DNA of 32,450 bases from an uncultured Thermomicrobiales bacterium (GTDB lineage: Bacteria > Chloroflexota > Chloroflexia > Thermomicrobiales > UBA6265), in contig CADCWF010000110.1 in NCBI GenBank assembly GCA_902806345.1, positions 1 to 32,450 on the forward strand, written 5' to 3'. The position numbers and the translations under genes are program-made. The notes under the pieces are model-generated. The model saw nothing but the letters and a program-made list of their open reading frames with translations, was not told the DNA's origin and made no database searches. This document shows, piece after piece, positions 13,935 to 23,510 of this stretch. The number at the start of each line of letters is the position of its first letter. Within the stretch, counting starts at the first letter, position 1.

Positions 13935-14597
13935 GTGTCGCGGCTCGTGGTCGGGGTGCTGGCGGCGGTCGCCGCGGTCGTGCTCGTCGGGGCGCTCTTC
14001 CGCCTCTTCGACTCGGCCTCGGCGCCGCCGATCGTGATCGCCGACCCGCCGGGGCCGGAGGAGATCGTCGTCGCGGTGGAGGGGGCGGTGGCGACGCCCG
14101 GGCTCTACCGCCTGCCCGGCGACGCCCGCCACGGGGACGCGATCGCCGCTGCCGGCGGCCTCGCCGGGGATGCCGACCAGGCGCTGGTCAACCCGGCCCG
14201 CCGCCTCTACGACGAGGACCGACTCGTCGTCCCGAGCCGTGCCCCGGTCGAGACGGCGGCACCCGCAGCCGCAACACGGGACGACGCGGCGGCCGAGTCC
14301 ACCACGATCTCTGGCGACCGCGACGACGATGACCCTTCGCCAACCGAACCGCCCCTGGCACCGATCGCGGTGACCGCGTCAAACGGAGGCGGCGGCCCGA
14401 GCCCGATCGACATCAACGCCGCCTCGGCCGCCGAACTCGACGCCCTCCCGGGGATCGGGCCGGCGCTTGCCGAACGGATCGTCGACCTCCGGAGCGAGCG
14501 CGGGGCGTTCCGCTCGGTGGAGGAGCTGGAGCAGGTCGAGGGCATCTCGCCGCGGATGGTCGAGGAGATCCGGCCACTGGTCAGCCTCGGCGGATGA
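13935..14597 (+). CDS. comEA: Competence protein ComEA (DNA receptor)
   Basis: A 220-residue membrane-anchored DNA-binding protein of the transformation apparatus. An N-terminal anchor (about 4-24), an SLBB domain (about 43-100, VAVEGAVATPGLYRL), an acidic, low-complexity linker (about 105-155), and a helix-hairpin-helix DNA-binding domain at about 157-218 with INAASAAELDALPGIGPALAERI. The family binds incoming double-stranded DNA and hands it to ComEC. A GTG start at 13935 is chosen because it places the anchor at the N-terminus and follows GAGGGCAG; a TTG at 13869 would add 22 residues. The stop overlaps the comEC start (ATGA at 14594-14597). Confidence 0.92.
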   Translation: MSRLVVGVLAAVAAVVLVGALFRLFDSASAPPIVIADPPGPEEIVVAVEGAVATPGLYRLPGDARHGDAIAAAGGLAGDADQALVNPARRLYDEDRLVVPSRAPVETAAPAAATRDDAAAESTTISGDRDDDDPSPTEPPLAPIAVTASNGGGGPSPIDINAASAAELDALPGIGPALAERIVDLRSERGAFRSVEELEQVEGISPRMVEEIRPLVSLGG

Positions 14598-16114
14598 CCG
14601 GCATCTTCGCCGGCCTGGCGCTGGTTTTCGCGGCCGCCGGCGGTTGGATCGTTGCGGCGGGCGTTGGGCTCGCCGCGGTCGCCGCCCTGCTCGTGGCGCC
14701 CCGGCCGACGCTTCGGCTGGTGCCGGCGGTCGTCGTCGTCGTCGCCGCGCTGCTCGGGGCCGCCCGCGCCGTCCCCCGGCCCGACGCCGCACCGCTCCCG
14801 TGGGCCGACGGCGTAGAGGCGGTCCGCGGCACGGTCACTGCGGCCCCGGTGAGGAGCGGCCTCAGCCAGCGGTTCGTCGTCCGGGTCGCAGAGGCGGAGG
14901 TCGAGAAGCGGTGGCTTTCGGCGGATGCCCTGCTCTGCGTCGTCGCCCAGCCGGAGCCAGTGGTCGGGGACGGCGATCGCCTCTGGCTGGCGGGCGGAGC
15001 CGTGCGGATCGACGACGTCGAGACCCGCTTCCGTCCGGTGATGCGGAGCCGAGGCTGCGGGGCAAGCATGTATGCCCGGAGCGTCGCCATCGACGAGCGA
15101 GGCCTCGGCTGGCGGCGTGCGATGGCGGAGGCGCGGGACGGCCTGGGCGGCGTGTTGGAGCGGTTGGCGCCGGGCGACATCGGGGCGCTGATGAGCGGGC
15201 TGGTCACCGGCGACGACGACGCGCTTTCGCCGGACATCCAGGACGCCTTCGTCGAGACTGGGACGACCCACATCACCGCGGTCAGCGGCTCCAACTTCAC
15301 GACGCTGCTGGTCGCCTTCGTCGCCGCCGGGCGGGCCACCGGGTGGCGCCGCCGCCTGCCTTGGCTGCTCCTGGTCGTCGTCGCCGTCTGGGCCTACGCC
15401 GCCTTCGTCGGGCTCAACCCGCCGGCCACCCGCGCCGCGCTCGTCGCCACCGGCGCCTCGCTCGCCCTCCTCGTCGGTCGCCGCCCGGAGATCGTGACGC
15501 TCATTGTCGTCGCGGCGGGGTTGATGATTGCTATTAATCCAGCACAGGTCTGGAGCCTCTCGTTCCAGCTCTCGCTCGCCGCCTCGCTTGCGATCGCCGC
15601 CGTCGCTGCCGTTCCGGAGGTGGGTGGGGCGCGAGCGTGGCTCGCGGCCGCAATCCTCGCAACACTCGTTGCCCAGGTGGCGACGCTGCCGATCCTGCTC
15701 CCGATCTCGGGTGGCGTCTCGATGATGAGTCTGCCGGCCAACCTGGCGATCGGACCCCTGGTTGCCCTCGCGTTCCCGCTCTCCGCCACCGCCGGTCTTC
15801 TCGGTGCCGTCTGGCCACCCCTTGGCGCGACCATCGCCGTCCCGGCCCGGCTGACCTGCGAGGCGATCGTCGGCATCGTCGCTTGGTCGGCGGCCCGCGG
15901 TGGCGCAGTCGGCATCGGGGATCTGCCCCCGTGCTCCCTGCTCATGGTTTCGCTGCTGGTCGCCGGCGCCTGCCTCGTCGCCAGTCGGGATGGCCAACGG
16001 ACGTGGCGGCGTTGGCCACGGCTCTGGGCCGGCATGGGGGAGCGGGAGCGGTGGCTCTGGGGCGCCGGCCTCATGGGCTCCATCGCAGCGCTGGTGATGG
16101 GCCTGGTCGTGTGA
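14594..16114 (+). CDS. comEC: ComEC/Rec2 DNA-uptake channel, short form
   Basis: A 506-residue polytopic membrane protein that would pass single-stranded DNA into the cell. N-terminal helices (about 2-60), an OB-like extracellular region (DUF4131, about 70-165), then the competence core: GLVTGDDDALSPDIQDAF and the family signature THITAVSGSNFTTLL at about 225-239, followed by about seven helices. It stops at 506 residues, so the C-terminal metallo-beta-lactamase-like domain of many ComEC proteins (usually 700-800 residues) is absent. Short forms exist in other lineages, so this need not be truncation; the frame ends cleanly before a strong hairpin. Translation is coupled to comEA. Confidence 0.92.
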   Translation: MTGIFAGLALVFAAAGGWIVAAGVGLAAVAALLVAPRPTLRLVPAVVVVVAALLGAARAVPRPDAAPLPWADGVEAVRGTVTAAPVRSGLSQRFVVRVAEAEVEKRWLSADALLCVVAQPEPVVGDGDRLWLAGGAVRIDDVETRFRPVMRSRGCGASMYARSVAIDERGLGWRRAMAEARDGLGGVLERLAPGDIGALMSGLVTGDDDALSPDIQDAFVETGTTHITAVSGSNFTTLLVAFVAAGRATGWRRRLPWLLLVVVAVWAYAAFVGLNPPATRAALVATGASLALLVGRRPEIVTLIVVAAGLMIAINPAQVWSLSFQLSLAASLAIAAVAAVPEVGGARAWLAAAILATLVAQVATLPILLPISGGVSMMSLPANLAIGPLVALAFPLSATAGLLGAVWPPLGATIAVPARLTCEAIVGIVAWSAARGGAVGIGDLPPCSLLMVSLLVAGACLVASRDGQRTWRRWPRLWAGMGERERWLWGAGLMGSIAALVMGLVV

Positions 16115-16296: not shown

Positions 16297-17736
16297 CTAG
16301 CGTTTGCGGCGACGGGTGTTCTGGCTCTGCTGGGGGAAGAGCCAGCGGGCGCCCTTGCCGCCGACGCGGACGACCCGGTACAGCATCCATGCGATCAGAA
16401 GCGCCTGGAAGATCACGCCGATTCCCTGGATCTGGGCGAGGCTGTCGCGATTGATGTTGCCGATGCTTTGCCCGCCTCTCTGATAGAGCCATATGACCAG
16501 CACAACCACCGACAGAATTGTGAAAGCGAGGATCTGGCGCTTGCGAGCCGCCTGCTTGAACGCCTCCTCCGGGGCGTCGTCCGGGATGATTAGGCCGGCG
16601 CGGCGAAAGAACAGGCTGACCCGTCCCGGCTCGTCGCCGTCGTCGGGTTCACCTTCCCGCGCCTCCTGCCGAAGCAGCCGGTTCTGGCGACGCTCGGAGT
16701 CCTTGAGGTCGACCGACATCTGCTGGTCGATCTGCTCGGCCAGCGCCCCCGTCTCGTCGAGTAGCTGATGCCGCAGGGCGTCGCGCTCAGCAGTCAGTCG
16801 GCCGATCGTGATCTGAGCCTCGTTCAACTGCATGGTGACGTTGTTCACATGGCGGACGAGCGGCGCGACGGCGGCGGTGACCTCCGGCAAGTCGAGGATG
16901 ACCTTCTCGGCCGCCTCTTTCTGGACCCGCATCCGCTCGACCGCGCGGGGAGGCTGGTTGGCCGTGTCGATGACCGGGGTGACCAGAACCCCCCGCCGGG
17001 CCTCCGCCTGCTGGAGTTCGATCGGCGGCCGGGCGGCAGCGGGGATCGTTCCAGACGGCGCCGCTACGGTGTCGACTGTGGCGCCAACGCCCGCCGCCGG
17101 TGCCGGGAGCTCCCCGGCGACCTTCTCCGGTTGGCCCGGATTTCCGTCCGGCTCGGCTGACCCGAGATGAATCGAGCGGCCGGCGTCGGCGGCCGGGGAA
17201 GCGGCGGACACCACCTCGCTTTGGGAGACGGACGAGTCCTCCTTCGAGGCCGGATCGAGTTCCGGGGATGTGCTTCGCCGACGCGCGCGCTCGTCGCGGG
17301 TCGGCCGCTCCGAGCGGCTTCGTTCGCCCCGTTCGTCCCGGCCACGCTCCCGGCGCTCCCCGGTGCGACGGGAACCTTGGCGAGACTCGATCGCGATCGG
17401 TTCGGAGCCCTCCGTCTCGGCGGCCTCGTCGCTGGTGGACTCCGTAACCGGTGCCGTCTCGGCGCCGACAGCCGTGCCACCGGCGGCATCGTCGTGGGGC
17501 TCGGCGTCCAGTCCCATCCGGTCCGTAACCGCGGGCTCGGCGGTGGCCGGTTCCTCGTCGCGATCCGGACGACCTCCTGCGAACCGCTCGGCGGCCACGA
17601 GCGGCACGACAGCGAGACCCGCCACCGCGACGGCGACGATGGGTGCCACCGCGTCGAGCGGATTTGGGATCACCCGACCGCCGGACGGGGCAGGCGTGGC
17701 GCCGTGAGGCGGCGTGGCGTTCTGGTTCTCCGACAA
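16297..17736 (-). CDS. Three-helix membrane protein with coiled coil and charged disordered linker
   Basis: A 479-residue protein I do not recognise. TM1 at about 30-50 is followed by a disordered stretch rich in Glu, Ser and Thr. A strongly mixed-charge segment lies at 118-158 (repeats of RGER, RDERGERSR). A Pro/Ala linker follows, then a helical coiled-coil region (about 265-355, with heptad-like ERMRVQKEAAEKV and ITIGRLTAERDAL), and two C-terminal helices at about 401-418 and 438-457 before a basic end (QNTRRRKR). The start is TTG 17736, supported by GGAGGGAAGGG just upstream. Tail-anchored coiled-coil proteins of this build often scaffold or tether complexes, but no function is assigned. 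It is a single gene, convergent with comEC and divergent from the tRNA. Confidence 0.75.
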   Translation of the reverse strand: MSENQNATPPHGATPAPSGGRVIPNPLDAVAPIVAVAVAGLAVVPLVAAERFAGGRPDRDEEPATAEPAVTDRMGLDAEPHDDAAGGTAVGAETAPVTESTSDEAAETEGSEPIAIESRQGSRRTGERRERGRDERGERSRSERPTRDERARRRSTSPELDPASKEDSSVSQSEVVSAASPAADAGRSIHLGSAEPDGNPGQPEKVAGELPAPAAGVGATVDTVAAPSGTIPAAARPPIELQQAEARRGVLVTPVIDTANQPPRAVERMRVQKEAAEKVILDLPEVTAAVAPLVRHVNNVTMQLNEAQITIGRLTAERDALRHQLLDETGALAEQIDQQMSVDLKDSERRQNRLLRQEAREGEPDDGDEPGRVSLFFRRAGLIIPDDAPEEAFKQAARKRQILAFTILSVVVLVIWLYQRGGQSIGNINRDSLAQIQGIGVIFQALLIAWMLYRVVRVGGKGARWLFPQQSQNTRRRKR

Positions 17737-17868: not shown

Positions 17869-17942
17869 GCCCCCATAGTCTAGCGGCCCAGGACGTCACC
17901 CTTTCAAGGTGAAGATCGCGGGTTCGAATCCCGCTGGGGGTA
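17869..17942 (+). tRNA. tRNA-Glu (anticodon UUC)
   Basis: A complete cloverleaf: acceptor GCCCCCA pairs with TGGGGGT (G1 wobbling with U72), D-arm with the AGCGG loop, anticodon stem TCACC/GGTGA with loop CTTTCAA giving anticodon TTC, and T-stem GCGGG/CCCGC with loop TTCGAAT. The discriminator is A at 17942. CCA is not fully encoded (CCG follows), so it would be added enzymatically. Confidence 0.96.
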
Positions 17943-17945
17943 CCG

Positions 17946-17972: not shown

Positions 17973-18324
17973 TGTCGTGGCGCGTCCTTCGCGCGGGGAC
18001 ATTGCCGGCCACCCTTTCGTGCGTGCAACGGTACCGCGAGCGGCGGAAGATTGCAAGGACCTAAAAATGACAAAATAAGACGGCGAGACGATAACGATCG
18101 TCCTCAGATTAGTTCGTACGGCTCCGGTGTTGTCCAAGGCGGGCATTCTGGCCCGCAGACCGAGCCGTGGTGCAGACCATTGACACCCCTCCTGGGCGGT
18201 GGTAGCGTGGCTTGGGGTTTCCAGAACAGTCGCGTGGCCGCCGGTGTGCGCCCGGCGTCCGTCGTCGCGTCGTTCATGGCAACGGGTTGAGGGAAGTCGG
18301 ATCCATCGAGGGAGGGTTGAAACC
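17973..18324. other. Intergenic region with an A/T-rich patch
   Basis: No gene is supported. An unusually A/T-rich stretch lies at about 18060-18080 (CTAAAAATGACAAAATAAG) in otherwise GC-rich DNA, next to a small inverted repeat (GACGAT/ATCGTC, 18087-18102). The promoter of the Gly-rich gene lies at 18180-18208. Confidence 0.5.
18180..18208 (+). promoter_or_regulatory. Probable promoter of the Gly-rich gene
   Basis: Perfect TTGACA (18180-18185) and TAGCGT (18203-18208; 3 of 6) with 17 bases between. The predicted start near 18215 leaves a 5' leader of about 110 bases before the GTG at 18325. Confidence 0.45.
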
Positions 18325-18600
18325 GTGGCGAACCTGATCTTCGGCCAAGTTGTCGAGACCGCATCGGCCGGCAACGGCGGCGGTGCCCTGGCAAGCGCCA
18401 ACGGCGGTGCGGTGTCCGTCGGCGACATCGGCTCCGGCGGCAACGCCGGCAGCGTGATCGGCGTCGGCGACACCATTGGCGACGTGGCGGTTTCGGGCGG
18501 CTCGTCCGCCAACGCGACCAACCTGGGCATCGCCGCCAACGGTGGCACCGCCATCGCCGATGCCTCCGGCGGCGACAACAACGTCGCCTTCGTCAGCTAG
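18325..18600 (+). CDS. Gly/Ala/Ser/Asn-rich low-complexity protein, 91 residues
   Basis: A compact protein of unknown function: MANLIFGQVVETASAG, then imperfect repeats in which GG or GN pairs alternate with small and beta-branched residues (GNGGGALASANGGAVSVGD, GSGGNAGSVIGVGDTIGD, ANGGTAIADASGGDNN). There is no Cys, Lys or Pro, almost no charge except Asp, and no signal peptide. The pattern of hydrophobic residues separated by Gly/Asn turns suggests a beta-solenoid or an assembling filament (inference). GTG at 18325 follows GAGGGAGGGTTGAAACC. It has its own promoter and a very strong hairpin downstream, so it is a monocistronic unit, perhaps highly expressed. Confidence 0.72.
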   Translation: MANLIFGQVVETASAGNGGGALASANGGAVSVGDIGSGGNAGSVIGVGDTIGDVAVSGGSSANATNLGIAANGGTAIADASGGDNNVAFVS

Positions 18601-18678
18601 GCTCCGAATCCCGGCGCACGACCAGGGGGTTCCGGGCTGAACGCCTCGGCCCGCCAGGGCCGACGGCACGACGAAGCA

Positions 18679-18726
18679 GACAACGGGCGGGAGGGGGTCG
18701 AGATCGACCCCCTCCCGCCCGTTGTC
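18679..18726. terminator. 23-base perfect hairpin after the Gly-rich gene
   Basis: Arms 18679-18701 and 18704-18726 are perfectly complementary, with only two bases between them (a slightly larger loop would form in RNA). The core is GGGCGGGAGGGGGTCGA and its complement. It lies 79 bases after the stop and 88 bases before the convergent phosphoesterase stop, so it can end both transcripts. No T tract follows on either strand; mRNA 3'-end protection is an alternative role. Confidence 0.7.
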
Positions 18727-19542: not shown

Positions 19543-19764
19543 CGGACCCCTCCTCGCGGCCGCACGGCGCTTCAGTCGCGGCGCCGGCGATTGTAGTGCG
19601 CCGCGAAGCGCCCGCCGGGGCGCGAGTCGGGGCGACGGGCGACGAACCAAGAACCCGAGACCTGCTCTCGTGCGTAGTAGGGTCAGGAACGACGAACTCC
19701 GAGGGCGACTGGTCGGGGCCGGGCCAACCGGCACCCGGTGCTGCCGCCGGAAAGGGAGAGCGAC

Positions 19765-21891
19765 GTGGGAGACGGGCCAACCCTCGGCACGGGCAGGAAG
19801 CTGGGCGCTACCCTCCGAGTCGGTGCGCCGCCGCGGCGAGCGGCAGTCCTGCTGGCGCTACTGGCGGCGATCGTCGCGCTGCCGGCGGCCGCGTTTCAGG
19901 CGGTGCTCCTGGCGCCGGACGGACCGTCGCCGGCGGTCGGCCACGCACAGGTCGTCGCCCAGGGGGTGGCACCGATGCCCGCCCCCGAAGTCGCCTGGCG
20001 CGTCGTTCTCGATTCGGCTGAGCTGCCCGCCGCCGCGATCGTCGAGGAGCGGGCCCTCGGGTTCGCCCTTGCCGACCGGGCGGCGGTGGTCGTCGACGAC
20101 CAAGCGACCGGAGTCCAGACCAGGCTGGCTGGCGGCGAGGCGTTGTTCGTGCCGACTGGCGCCCGCCAGCGCCGGGCCGCTCTCGGGCCGGCGCCCACGC
20201 CCTACTACCGGCTCGCCCTGGTCCCTCCGGAGCACGCCACCGACGCCGGCGGCGACCGCCTCGTCTTCGCCGGCAACCAGTTCGCCGCCCCGGTCGGCCG
20301 CGCCTTCGACCTCGACCTCCTCCGTGACGTGCTCGACCCAGGCGAGGAGCGCCGTCTCTCGGCGACGGGGACGCCAACGCTGGTGCTGGCGACGGCCGGC
20401 ACGGTTGACGTCAGCGCGGGCGGTGCCACGCCGGTCCGGCTTGCCGCCGGGCAGGCTGGAGCCTTCGCTGGCGCGTTGACCGTCTCCGGCGAGGGTCCCC
20501 GCCAGTCGGCTTTCGTCGCCGCTGTCATCGGCCCGGAGGTACCGGCGCCACCGGTGCCCCCGACCGGCTCGATCTCGATGGATGTCCGTGCCTGCCCGGC
20601 TGGTCTCGACGCCGTCGAAGCCGCGGCAACGGGGTTCGCCGCCGACATCCTCGCTAGCTGCGTCCCCCAGCCCCTCGACCCACTCCCGGCCCTGATCCTG
20701 GCCGGCGGTCAACTGTTGCCGCCCGACGTGCCTGACCCAACCGCCGGCCGCTACACCTGGACGGGGCTGCTCTACAGCCCGTTCCCCTTCGCCGACCCCG
20801 CGATTCCGCGGCCGTTCCGTGACTGGGTGCTGGTCGATCCGATGACCGGCGTCGTCACCGCCTCGGAGGGCGCGGGCGTCCAGCCGACGGTCGCCGATCC
20901 TGGCCTGCTCGTGGTTGGCTCGGCGCGTCCGGATGTGACGGCAACACTCTACCTGTTCTCCCGTGGCGAGGGCTTGGTGACGCTCCGCACCTTTGCCTGC
21001 CCGGCCGGAATGACCGAGGCGACGTTCGATCCCAGCGCGTGCGAGCCGCTGGCCGACGGCATCGCGGCAAGCCTAACAGGAGAGAGCGACGGTCAGTCGG
21101 TCGACCTCGCGCAGGCGGTCGTGGCGGCCGATGGTAGCCGCCAGTGGGAACAGTTGGCGCTCGGGGAGTATTTGCTCGCGGTAACGGCGCTGCCGGCGGG
21201 GTACGACCGGACCGTGGCGACCGGTGCCGAGCCCGACGCGGCGACCGGCGGCTATCGCCTCTCGCTCGAGACGACCGCGGCGGCGGCCGATGTCGCGTTG
21301 TACGCCCTGGCGGACGCGGCCGGCAGCAAGTCGATCGGCGTCCGCGTCTACGACTGCCCGCCGGGGATGGACCGGGCGACATTGGCCGGCGATTTCTGCG
21401 ACGCTGGGGACCCCGGCAGCGTCTCGGTCATCGGTCCAGACGGGACGCCGCTCGGCACGGCGACGGTTAGGGGCAACCTTGCAACCTGGGTCGCTTCGAC
21501 GGAGGGCCCATACACCGTGGTCGGCGGCATCGGCGAGGCGTTCGTCGACGCCTTCGCCCCGGGCGCCTTGGAGGTGGGGCCGGGGCAGTTCCAGGTGACG
21601 CTGACGGCCGAAGCGCCGGCGGTCGAGACCGCGATCTACCGATTCCAGCCGGACGACGCGCCGGTGGCCGACGCGGACGGCGACGGCCTGAGCGACGCCT
21701 CCGAAGCGCAGGTCGGCACCGACCCTGGGGACCCCGACACGGACGGCGACGGCCGCGCCGACGGCGACGAGGTCGGCCCTCGGATCGTCAACACCGACCC
21801 CTTGAACCCCGACACCGACGGCGACGGCGTCGACGACGGCGACGAGATCGCGGCCGGGATCGACCCGAACGATCCGACCCTTACCCCGTGA
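19765..21891 (+). CDS. Secreted cupin-like / Cys-module / Tsp3-repeat protein
   Basis: A 708-residue exported protein of unknown function. A signal anchor at about 25-48 (RRAAVLLALLAAIVALPAAA). Two cupin-like beta modules (about 55-160 and 165-260) lack the metal-binding histidines. Three modules begin with a CP-x-G-[LM] motif (Cys277, Cys412, Cys531), each with a second Cys some 14-20 residues later, suggesting disulfide-closed beta domains. Residues 636-706 carry three calcium-type repeats (DADGDGLSD, DTDGDGRAD, DTDGDGVDD) and end FNDPTLTP-like at the C-terminus (actual end DPNDPTLTP), with no anchor motif. GTG 19765 is preferred over GTG 19738 because AAAGGGAGAGCGAC precedes it. The next gene is a paralogue. 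Confidence 0.8.
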   Translation: MGDGPTLGTGRKLGATLRVGAPPRRAAVLLALLAAIVALPAAAFQAVLLAPDGPSPAVGHAQVVAQGVAPMPAPEVAWRVVLDSAELPAAAIVEERALGFALADRAAVVVDDQATGVQTRLAGGEALFVPTGARQRRAALGPAPTPYYRLALVPPEHATDAGGDRLVFAGNQFAAPVGRAFDLDLLRDVLDPGEERRLSATGTPTLVLATAGTVDVSAGGATPVRLAAGQAGAFAGALTVSGEGPRQSAFVAAVIGPEVPAPPVPPTGSISMDVRACPAGLDAVEAAATGFAADILASCVPQPLDPLPALILAGGQLLPPDVPDPTAGRYTWTGLLYSPFPFADPAIPRPFRDWVLVDPMTGVVTASEGAGVQPTVADPGLLVVGSARPDVTATLYLFSRGEGLVTLRTFACPAGMTEATFDPSACEPLADGIAASLTGESDGQSVDLAQAVVAADGSRQWEQLALGEYLLAVTALPAGYDRTVATGAEPDAATGGYRLSLETTAAAADVALYALADAAGSKSIGVRVYDCPPGMDRATLAGDFCDAGDPGSVSVIGPDGTPLGTATVRGNLATWVASTEGPYTVVGGIGEAFVDAFAPGALEVGPGQFQVTLTAEAPAVETAIYRFQPDDAPVADADGDGLSDASEAQVGTDPGDPDTDGDGRADGDEVGPRIVNTDPLNPDTDGDGVDDGDEIAAGIDPNDPTLTP
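21670..21885 (+). repeat. Tsp3-like calcium-binding repeats (3 copies)
   Basis: In-frame copies of D-x-D-G-D-G-x-x-D-x-x-E, with codons mostly GAC/GGC, produce DNA-level GACGGCGACGGC repeats. In thrombospondin-type-3 and related repeats, the Asp residues bind Ca2+ (family knowledge). Confidence 0.85.
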
Positions 21892-22004: not shown

Positions 22005-23510
22005 GTGATGTCTACTCCAACCCAGGCGACCGGCGGTCGAAGCGCACCGCGACGGTGGCGGGCTTGCGTCCTGGTCGCCGCGGCCCTCGCCCTGCCGGTC
22101 GGCGGCGTCGCCGCGCTCCGCCAGGCACCGGCCGACCCTTCGCCCGCAACCGGCGACGCCAAGGTCATCGCCCAGGGGGTGGTTCCGATTGGCCCGGGCG
22201 ACATCGTCTGGCAAGTTGCCCGGGGGACCGCCCAGACCCCGGCCAACGCCGCCGCGGTCGAAGCCGAAACCGGTTTTCTCCTGGCGGCCGACGGCGCCAT
22301 CCTGGTTGAGGACGACGCGGGCAGCCAGCTTCGGCTCGCGGCCGGCGAAGCGGGACTTTCCGAGGCCGGCGTGGGCCAAACGCGGGCGGCGCTCGGTTCC
22401 AACGCGACCGACTTTTGGGCACTGGAGCTGATCGAGGCACCCGGCGGCGGCGGCACGGGCGCCGGCGACCCGACGTTCACCAGCTCGCCCTTCACGGGGC
22501 CGGGAAGCCGCCACGATCTCGACTTGGTCGGTGCCACGCTCGACCCGGGCGAAATCCTGGACGTGCCTGCGGGCGCGCTGCCGTCGCTCCTGCTGGTGCT
22601 GAGCGGTTCGGCCGAGATCGCCGCCGGCGAGGACGAGTCCGTCTCGGTTGGCGAGGGCGAGGCCCTTACCGTCGACGGCGGGTTCACCGTCACCGGTCTC
22701 GAGGACGGGGCCGAATTGGCGGTGGCCGTGGTCGGCCCGGCCGTTCCCCGCCTCGGCTCCGGCGGTGCGGCGACTCCGATCCCCACCGAAGATGCCCCGA
22801 CTGACGAAGCGCAGGCGGCCGCGACGATCGCGGCGCCGGGGGACGACGAGGAGACCGGCGACGAGACTCCGGTCGCCGCAGCGGCCGCGGTCGAGGAGAC
22901 TCCGACCGCGGCCGAGACCCCTGTCGCCGACGAAGCCGCCGCCGTCGAGGAGACCCCGGCTGCGGACGAGACGGTCGCCGTCGTCTCCGAGGCGCCCGCC
23001 CTCTCCGAGGACGCGGCCGAGACCGACATCGATACGGACGGCGACGGGCTGAGCGACGCAGTCGAGCTTGAACTGAACACCGATCCGGCCGTTGCCGATA
23101 CCGACGGCGACGGGCTCACCGACGACGAGGAGGCCAACGTCTACGCGACGGCCCCGCTCGCGACCGACACCGACGGGGACGGCGTGACGGACGGCGACGA
23201 GATCGCCATCGGCACCGACCCCTTCGACGGAGGGGTCGCGGCGGAGGCGCCGGCCGAGCCGGTGGCCGAAACACCGGCCGAGCCCGGAACCGGCCTCGAC
23301 AGCGACGGCGACGGCCTGACCGACGACTTCGAGATCGAGCTCGGCATCGATCCCTTTGTCGCCGACAGCGACGGGGATGGTCTGATTGACGGCCAGGAGT
23401 ACGGCGCTTACGAGACCGGGTTGCTCAACCCAGACAGCGACGGCGACGGCGTCACCGACGGTGACGAGGCGCTGAACGGGACGAACCCGAACGACCCGGC
23501 GAGCAACTAG
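22005..23510 (+). CDS. Secreted cupin-like / Tsp3-repeat protein, paralogue of the upstream gene
   Basis: A 501-residue exported protein. Signal segment at about 17-38 (WRACVLVAAALALPVGGVAAL). The region at about 48-145 aligns with the upstream protein: both have AQGV-P then W-x-V, a GF-x-LA strand and RAALG. A second cupin-like module lies at about 160-250 (LDPGEILDVPAGALPSLLLV), again without metal-binding histidines. An Ala/Glu/Thr/Pro linker follows (about 265-340), then six DxDGDG repeats (343 to about 500). It lacks the CP-x-GM modules of the larger paralogue and has no Cys in the mature part. GTG 22005 lies 9 bases after GGAGG; ATG 22008, one codon later, is equally possible. It is 113 bases after the first gene. 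Confidence 0.82.
   Translation: MMSTPTQATGGRSAPRRWRACVLVAAALALPVGGVAALRQAPADPSPATGDAKVIAQGVVPIGPGDIVWQVARGTAQTPANAAAVEAETGFLLAADGAILVEDDAGSQLRLAAGEAGLSEAGVGQTRAALGSNATDFWALELIEAPGGGGTGAGDPTFTSSPFTGPGSRHDLDLVGATLDPGEILDVPAGALPSLLLVLSGSAEIAAGEDESVSVGEGEALTVDGGFTVTGLEDGAELAVAVVGPAVPRLGSGGAATPIPTEDAPTDEAQAAATIAAPGDDEETGDETPVAAAAAVEETPTAAETPVADEAAAVEETPAADETVAVVSEAPALSEDAAETDIDTDGDGLSDAVELELNTDPAVADTDGDGLTDDEEANVYATAPLATDTDGDGVTDGDEIAIGTDPFDGGVAAEAPAEPVAETPAEPGTGLDSDGDGLTDDFEIELGIDPFVADSDGDGLIDGQEYGAYETGLLNPDSDGDGVTDGDEALNGTNPNDPASN
23031..23500 (+). repeat. Tsp3-like calcium-binding repeats (6 copies)
   Basis: Six in-frame D-[ST]-D-G-D-G-[LV]-x-D-x-x-E units: three, a Pro/Ala/Glu spacer (about 23230-23290), then three more. 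The spacer splits the array into two blocks, as expected from an internal duplication. Confidence 0.85.

Follow-up and report, generated by a model that had tools for sequence, protein, structure and literature searches.

A multi-copy family of Gly/Asn/Ala-rich module proteins, short and LPxTG-like, in uncultured Thermomicrobiales

The module gene and its flanking elements

The window analyzed here is a stretch of 32,450 nucleotides from an uncultured Thermomicrobiales bacterium (contig CADCWF010000110.1 of assembly GCA_902806345.1). It contains a gene for a 91–amino acid (aa) protein made of a single Gly/Asn/Ala-rich module, which lies beside a tRNA-Glu gene and is followed by a long inverted repeat. 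The features of the locus are the following:

14594-16111: ComEC (Pfam Competence)
16300-17736, minus strand: 479-aa protein with no Pfam match, present at the locus in 10 of 11 family-bearing genomes
17869-17944, plus strand: tRNA-Glu (TTC), identified by ARAGORN and as Rfam tRNA; conserved upstream neighbor
18180-18185, plus strand: −35 box TTGACA, part of a recurrent promoter-like pattern
18200-18208, plus strand: extended −10 box TGGTAGCGT after a 17-nt spacer; its TG-extended TAGCGT recurs at the orthologous locus
18310-18315, plus strand: Shine-Dalgarno sequence GGGAGG, nine bases ahead of the start codon, read from the sequence
18325-18600, plus strand: 91-aa single-module protein with a GTG start, a TAG stop at 18598-18600, and a C-terminal -AFVS
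18355-18597, plus strand: family module, 82 profile positions (profile match at E 1.0e-29)
18679-18726, plus strand: 23-bp inverted repeat, a terminator-like hairpin without a clear U-tract

Two neighboring proteins with bacterial TSP3 repeats are encoded at 19738-21888 and 22005-23507.

The window protein contains 22 Gly, 17 Ala, 10 Val, 10 Ser, and 9 Asn residues and lacks Cys, Lys, Pro, Arg, His, and Trp. The first-pass annotation had described 91 residues free of Cys, Lys, and Pro, as the counts confirm, and its span of 18325-18726 comprises exactly the gene and the hairpin, the promoter at 18180-18208 falling outside. The window genome (5.08 Mb, 377 contigs) encodes additional copies, of which the four best matches share 83, 76, 73, and 86% identity with the window protein. 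The search for paralogues with the opening MANLIFGQ, which had been proposed as a check, returned the near-identical openings MSNLIFGQ (twice), MSNLLFGQ, MNLLFGQ (twice), and MSEFVFGQ. When the codons of 58 short genes of the family were compared, the 1570 pairs gave a median pN/pS of 0.53, with pN below pS in 99.6% of them, and a third-position excess was seen. Paralogues differ in length by whole codons, the Shine-Dalgarno sequence and the stop are conserved, and GGGAGG or GGAGG precedes most starts across the family. Since paralogues are present in the genome itself and in relatives, pN is below pS, and the locus is conserved (see below), the open reading frame (ORF) is a real gene, and it is near certain that it is coding and not a product of chance. 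The frame is conserved in relatives and under purifying selection, which settles the doubt raised earlier as to whether the transcript might be noncoding. A structured noncoding RNA with an incidental ORF could explain the very strength of the hairpin, and spurious ORFs abound in this GC-rich stretch; however, the codon signals, the whole-codon length changes with conserved Shine-Dalgarno sequence and stop, the lack of any Rfam match other than tRNA, and the nonconserved hairpin sequence make this reading extremely improbable.

A TTGACA-like box separated by 16 to 18 nt from TAnnnT was present in 27 of 63 upstream regions, versus 0.5% of Markov resamples, and the −10 element was TG-extended in 25 of these 27. 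TAGCGT with the TG extension occurred in eight of the 63 regions, every one at the window’s orthologous locus, where TTGACA-17-TGGTAGCGT is nearly unchanged in other genera. The promoter-like site is generally missing from the second genes of tandem pairs. Inspection had hinted at a conserved structure of the 5′ untranslated region, but this is not claimed, since folding gave a mean z of −0.75; 25 of 63 regions had z under −1, and the region of the window gene had +1.4.

The arms of the inverted repeat (18679-18701 and 18704-18726), each of 23 nt, are 100% complementary and separated by 2 nt; the repeat begins 78 nt past the stop of the window gene and would form ~22 pairs with a 4-nt loop as RNA. 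The 3′ region folds with z = −6.3 (none of 200 shuffles was equally stable), and a hairpin of equal strength appeared in none of 100 shuffles. The perfect 23-bp hairpin noted in the first-pass annotation is thus real, but it is not exceptional. With L043 and four short genes having less than 130 nt downstream omitted from the count, 36 of 43 single or last short genes had a stem of 12 or more pairs in the 130 nt past their stop. The corresponding counts were 22 of 132 for control ORF ends, 16 of 215 for shuffles, and 3 of 10 for the stretches between tandem module genes. The window hairpin is therefore an ordinary 3′-end element of the module gene family. As in intrinsic (Rho-independent) terminators, a strong GC-rich hairpin stands soon past the last gene and is mostly absent between tandem copies; unlike in those terminators, a T-rich tail follows the stem in just 12 of 40 cases, and the tail at the window, CTGAACCGCA, is not T-rich, so that the U-tract is absent there. 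The pattern suggests a terminator-like element or a 3′ stabilizer. The hairpin matched no Rfam family, and we rejected a repeated or mobile element since the sequence is unique in the genome. High expression, which had also been proposed, is consistent with the sequence marks of the locus, namely, an extended −10 promoter, a strong Shine-Dalgarno sequence, and a terminator-like hairpin belonging to the gene itself.

Range of the family and its conserved locus

A profile search of the class yielded matches at E ≤ 1e-5 in 11 of 158 genomes, belonging to 5 of 78 genera, with 9 to 27 module matches per family-bearing genome. Among the matches listed for 61 genomes searched, the strong ones fell in genera g1, g5, g7, g13, and g14, all of one taxonomic family. 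In a phylum-wide draw of 400 genomes, the window’s own genome was the sole match, while a named sequence collection contributed 69 loci whose records are Thermomicrobiales, Chloroflexi, or Chloroflexia metagenome-assembled genomes or simply “bacterium.” The 80 relative regions were hand-chosen among the matches listed, and the family counts refer to this chosen set. No relative of the module was found in Pfam, NCBIfam, PHROGs, or the Protein Data Bank sequences, and the literature as far as searched holds no description of a Gly/Asn/Ala module family of this kind. A phage origin was considered and rejected, as there was no relative in viral_contigs and no PHROGs match to the module better than E 0.26. 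The module thus appears to define a previously unnamed, multi-copy family limited to a small number of genera among the uncultured Thermomicrobiales (Chloroflexi).

The order at the locus is ComEC, the 16300-17736 protein, tRNA-Glu, one to three module genes, and a metallophosphoesterase and/or a TSP3-repeat protein. Module genes lie beside ComEC/tRNA-Glu in all 11 family-bearing genomes examined, some neighbors being off-contig; tRNA-Glu adjoins the module gene in 10 of them (in L072, the contig starts past the tRNA), and the metallophosphoesterase is present in 6. In genera without the family, ComEC is next to tRNA-Glu in 11 of 13 regions (L225 to L237), one of the other two ending before tRNA-Glu and one lacking it, and no module follows tRNA-Glu in the stretches covered. 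Since ComEC and tRNA-Glu stay together without the module, the tRNA is an old landmark beside which the module gene has been gained or lost. On the ComEC tree, four changes are needed to account for family presence; the tree is poorly resolved, so one gain, several gains, and losses are indistinguishable. Other module copies likewise share neighborhoods between genera.

Short and long forms of the module

The module is ~82 aa long, with the consensus DTASAGNGGxATASANGGAVxxGDVNSGGNAGxAIGVGDTxGxVxVDGGxVxNSTxLxVSAxGGTAIADASGGDYNLAFVS. GG pairs occupy consensus positions 18, 27, 38, 58, 73, and 82, and the motif NGGxAxAxAxGG is common to both halves, so the repetitive character ascribed to the protein earlier holds. 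Among 95 module ORFs found, nine were omitted from classification, either as fragments or open ends (L040, L044, L062, L069, and one of L076) or as stop-broken (L053 twice and L090 twice). The remaining 86 proteins were classified as 58 short, 20 LPxTG-like, and 8 other. Several observations were made alongside. Two copies with an in-frame stop (TGA, TAG) at L053:3547-4158 and L090:4283-4798 are probably decaying paralogues. In L045, L081, and L099, modules lie within otherwise different, Tat-like or Cys-rich proteins that look exported. Short members from L039, L054, L064, L137, L153, and L164 have a two-Cys insert (e.g., CDKYGKC) between the module halves, at the place of a Cys-bearing loop in long members. 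A second small, secreted-looking family with no Pfam match (L076:1378-1872; L086 and L115 hold relatives) is found beside short module genes, and its C-terminal motif, GVAISDASGGNYNASATRR in L076, is similar to theirs.

Long proteins contain one to five modules and are mostly built of a signal peptide, the repeats, a Pro-rich linker, L-P-x-T-G, a hydrophobic stretch, and RRR, the plan of LPXTG wall-anchored repeat proteins. A signal peptide was recognized at the start of 17 of the 20 LPxTG-like proteins. The class assignment refers to the motif as read from the sequence, since, unlike established LPXTG-anchored proteins, long members score below the profile cut-offs (14.4 bits versus 15.9 for TIGR01167 and 13.8 versus 20 for PF00746); short members have no such tail. 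Three PF04203 sortase genes exceed the cut-off in the window genome, and sortase is found in 58 of 61 relatives, with or without the module family.

By a crude home-made rule, a signal-like N terminus is present in 15 of 58 short proteins and absent from the other 43, including the window protein; the first gene of L109 is probably a false positive of this rule, and L043 and L105 are probably false negatives. Several leaderless short proteins begin at the mature N terminus of signal-bearing relatives, as in MAQDTAAAGNGG versus ...AGAAAQDIAASGNGG, and short starts of the M..FAQ/FGQ type pair with ...AAQE in signal-bearing relatives. The leaderless forms look as if a signal peptide had been dropped. 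These N termini, the Gly/Asn-rich, acidic composition, and the lack of a HlyD-type type I exporter subunit (TIGR01843) in the window genome, on which type I secretion was rejected, would also suit leaderless proteins that stay inside the cell and form gels, filaments, or granules or protect against desiccation, the signal having been lost while long relatives still reach the surface. We consider this possible though rather unlikely, as the same module occurs in apparently exported, anchored proteins, some short members do have signal-like N termini, and the conserved turn pattern is unlike that of a disordered protectant.

The short, single-module proteins also share their C terminus, which is FVS in 53 of 58, FLS in 1, and PFS in 2. 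The FVS ending is retained in L080 and L089 despite long inserts before it, whereas all 28 proteins classified as LPxTG-like or other end differently. Such a distribution could reflect a signal peptide–independent export route that recognizes the C-terminal -FVS. This seems improbable: The ending may be just the last strand of the fold, and a search of one genome for one exporter family (TIGR01843) gave no match. Hemolysin-type Ca-binding repeats (RTX) had no Pfam match in 13 short members.

AlphaFold2 modeled the window protein with a pLDDT of 66 and a pTM of 0.27 and a three-module relative with values of 47 and 0.27, and Foldseek found no match. The solenoid-like fold and the filament suggested by the first-pass annotation therefore lack a confident model or structural relative. 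As to its third suggestion, a surface-layer component, the missing signal peptide of the window protein speaks against an S-layer subunit of the simple secreted kind; Pfam searches of this protein and of 13 short and 6 long members revealed no SLH or other known S-layer domain. What stands of the proposed structural or assembling role is its general sense, as a repetitive module that also occurs in multi-module secreted LPxTG-like proteins would fit a role in assembly or at the surface.

A possible subunit-and-anchor assembly at the envelope

The presence of the module in exported, probably sortase-anchored proteins and in a high-copy short form suggests a subunit-and-anchor surface assembly. 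According to this reasoned guess, which we hold tentatively and at somewhat less than even confidence, short subunits self-assemble at the envelope and long, sortase-attached proteins tether them. The module would form β-arches with turns at NGG/SGG and would self-associate; short proteins would be mass-produced subunits assembling on or under the cell envelope, and long proteins, attached by sortase, would tether the assembly. Localization and assembly are what we infer, as a signal peptide is missing from the majority of short forms and no usable structural model was obtained. Counting against the model are the 43 leaderless short proteins, the lack of a confident fold, the subthreshold LPxTG profiles, and the occurrence of sortase irrespective of the family. 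Its chief competitors are the internal role and the export route through the C terminus described above. A more elaborate version, a two-compartment system in which leaderless short proteins supply the self-associating module in quantity and anchored long proteins display it, with the free C-terminal FVS as an export or polymerization signal of the short form, is doubtful.

The closest parallel to the subunit-and-anchor assembly is provided by the chaplins of Streptomyces. PMC5618241 describes short chaplins (ChpD to ChpH) with one module, long ones (ChpA to ChpC) with more modules and a C-terminal sorting signal, and several paralogues per genome. The module family likewise combines short single-module and long LPxTG-like members (58 and 20 of 86) with multiple paralogues. 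In contrast to the chaplins, the module here is Gly/Asn/Ala-rich, nearly Cys-free, and unrelated; PF03777 matched neither the window protein nor any of 13 short and 6 long members; and, by the home-made rule, a signal peptide is carried by only 15 of 58 short forms.

Curli-type CsgA proteins, with small Gly/Asn-rich curlin repeats and regularly spaced turns, resemble the module too. However, Pfam curlin has no match in the window protein or 13 short members, and the GG turns of the module, spaced by 9, 11, 20, 15, and 9 residues, form no regular repeat. Most likely, the window protein associates with the envelope and self-assembles, small and anchored forms dividing the work as in chaplins.

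If this is so, the route by which signal-less subunits exit the cell becomes a puzzle. An unnamed family with a chaplin-type plan would represent an independent invention of the small-subunit-plus-anchor architecture, and the module family offers a simple way to ask whether bacteria evolved surface assemblies of this kind on more than one occasion.
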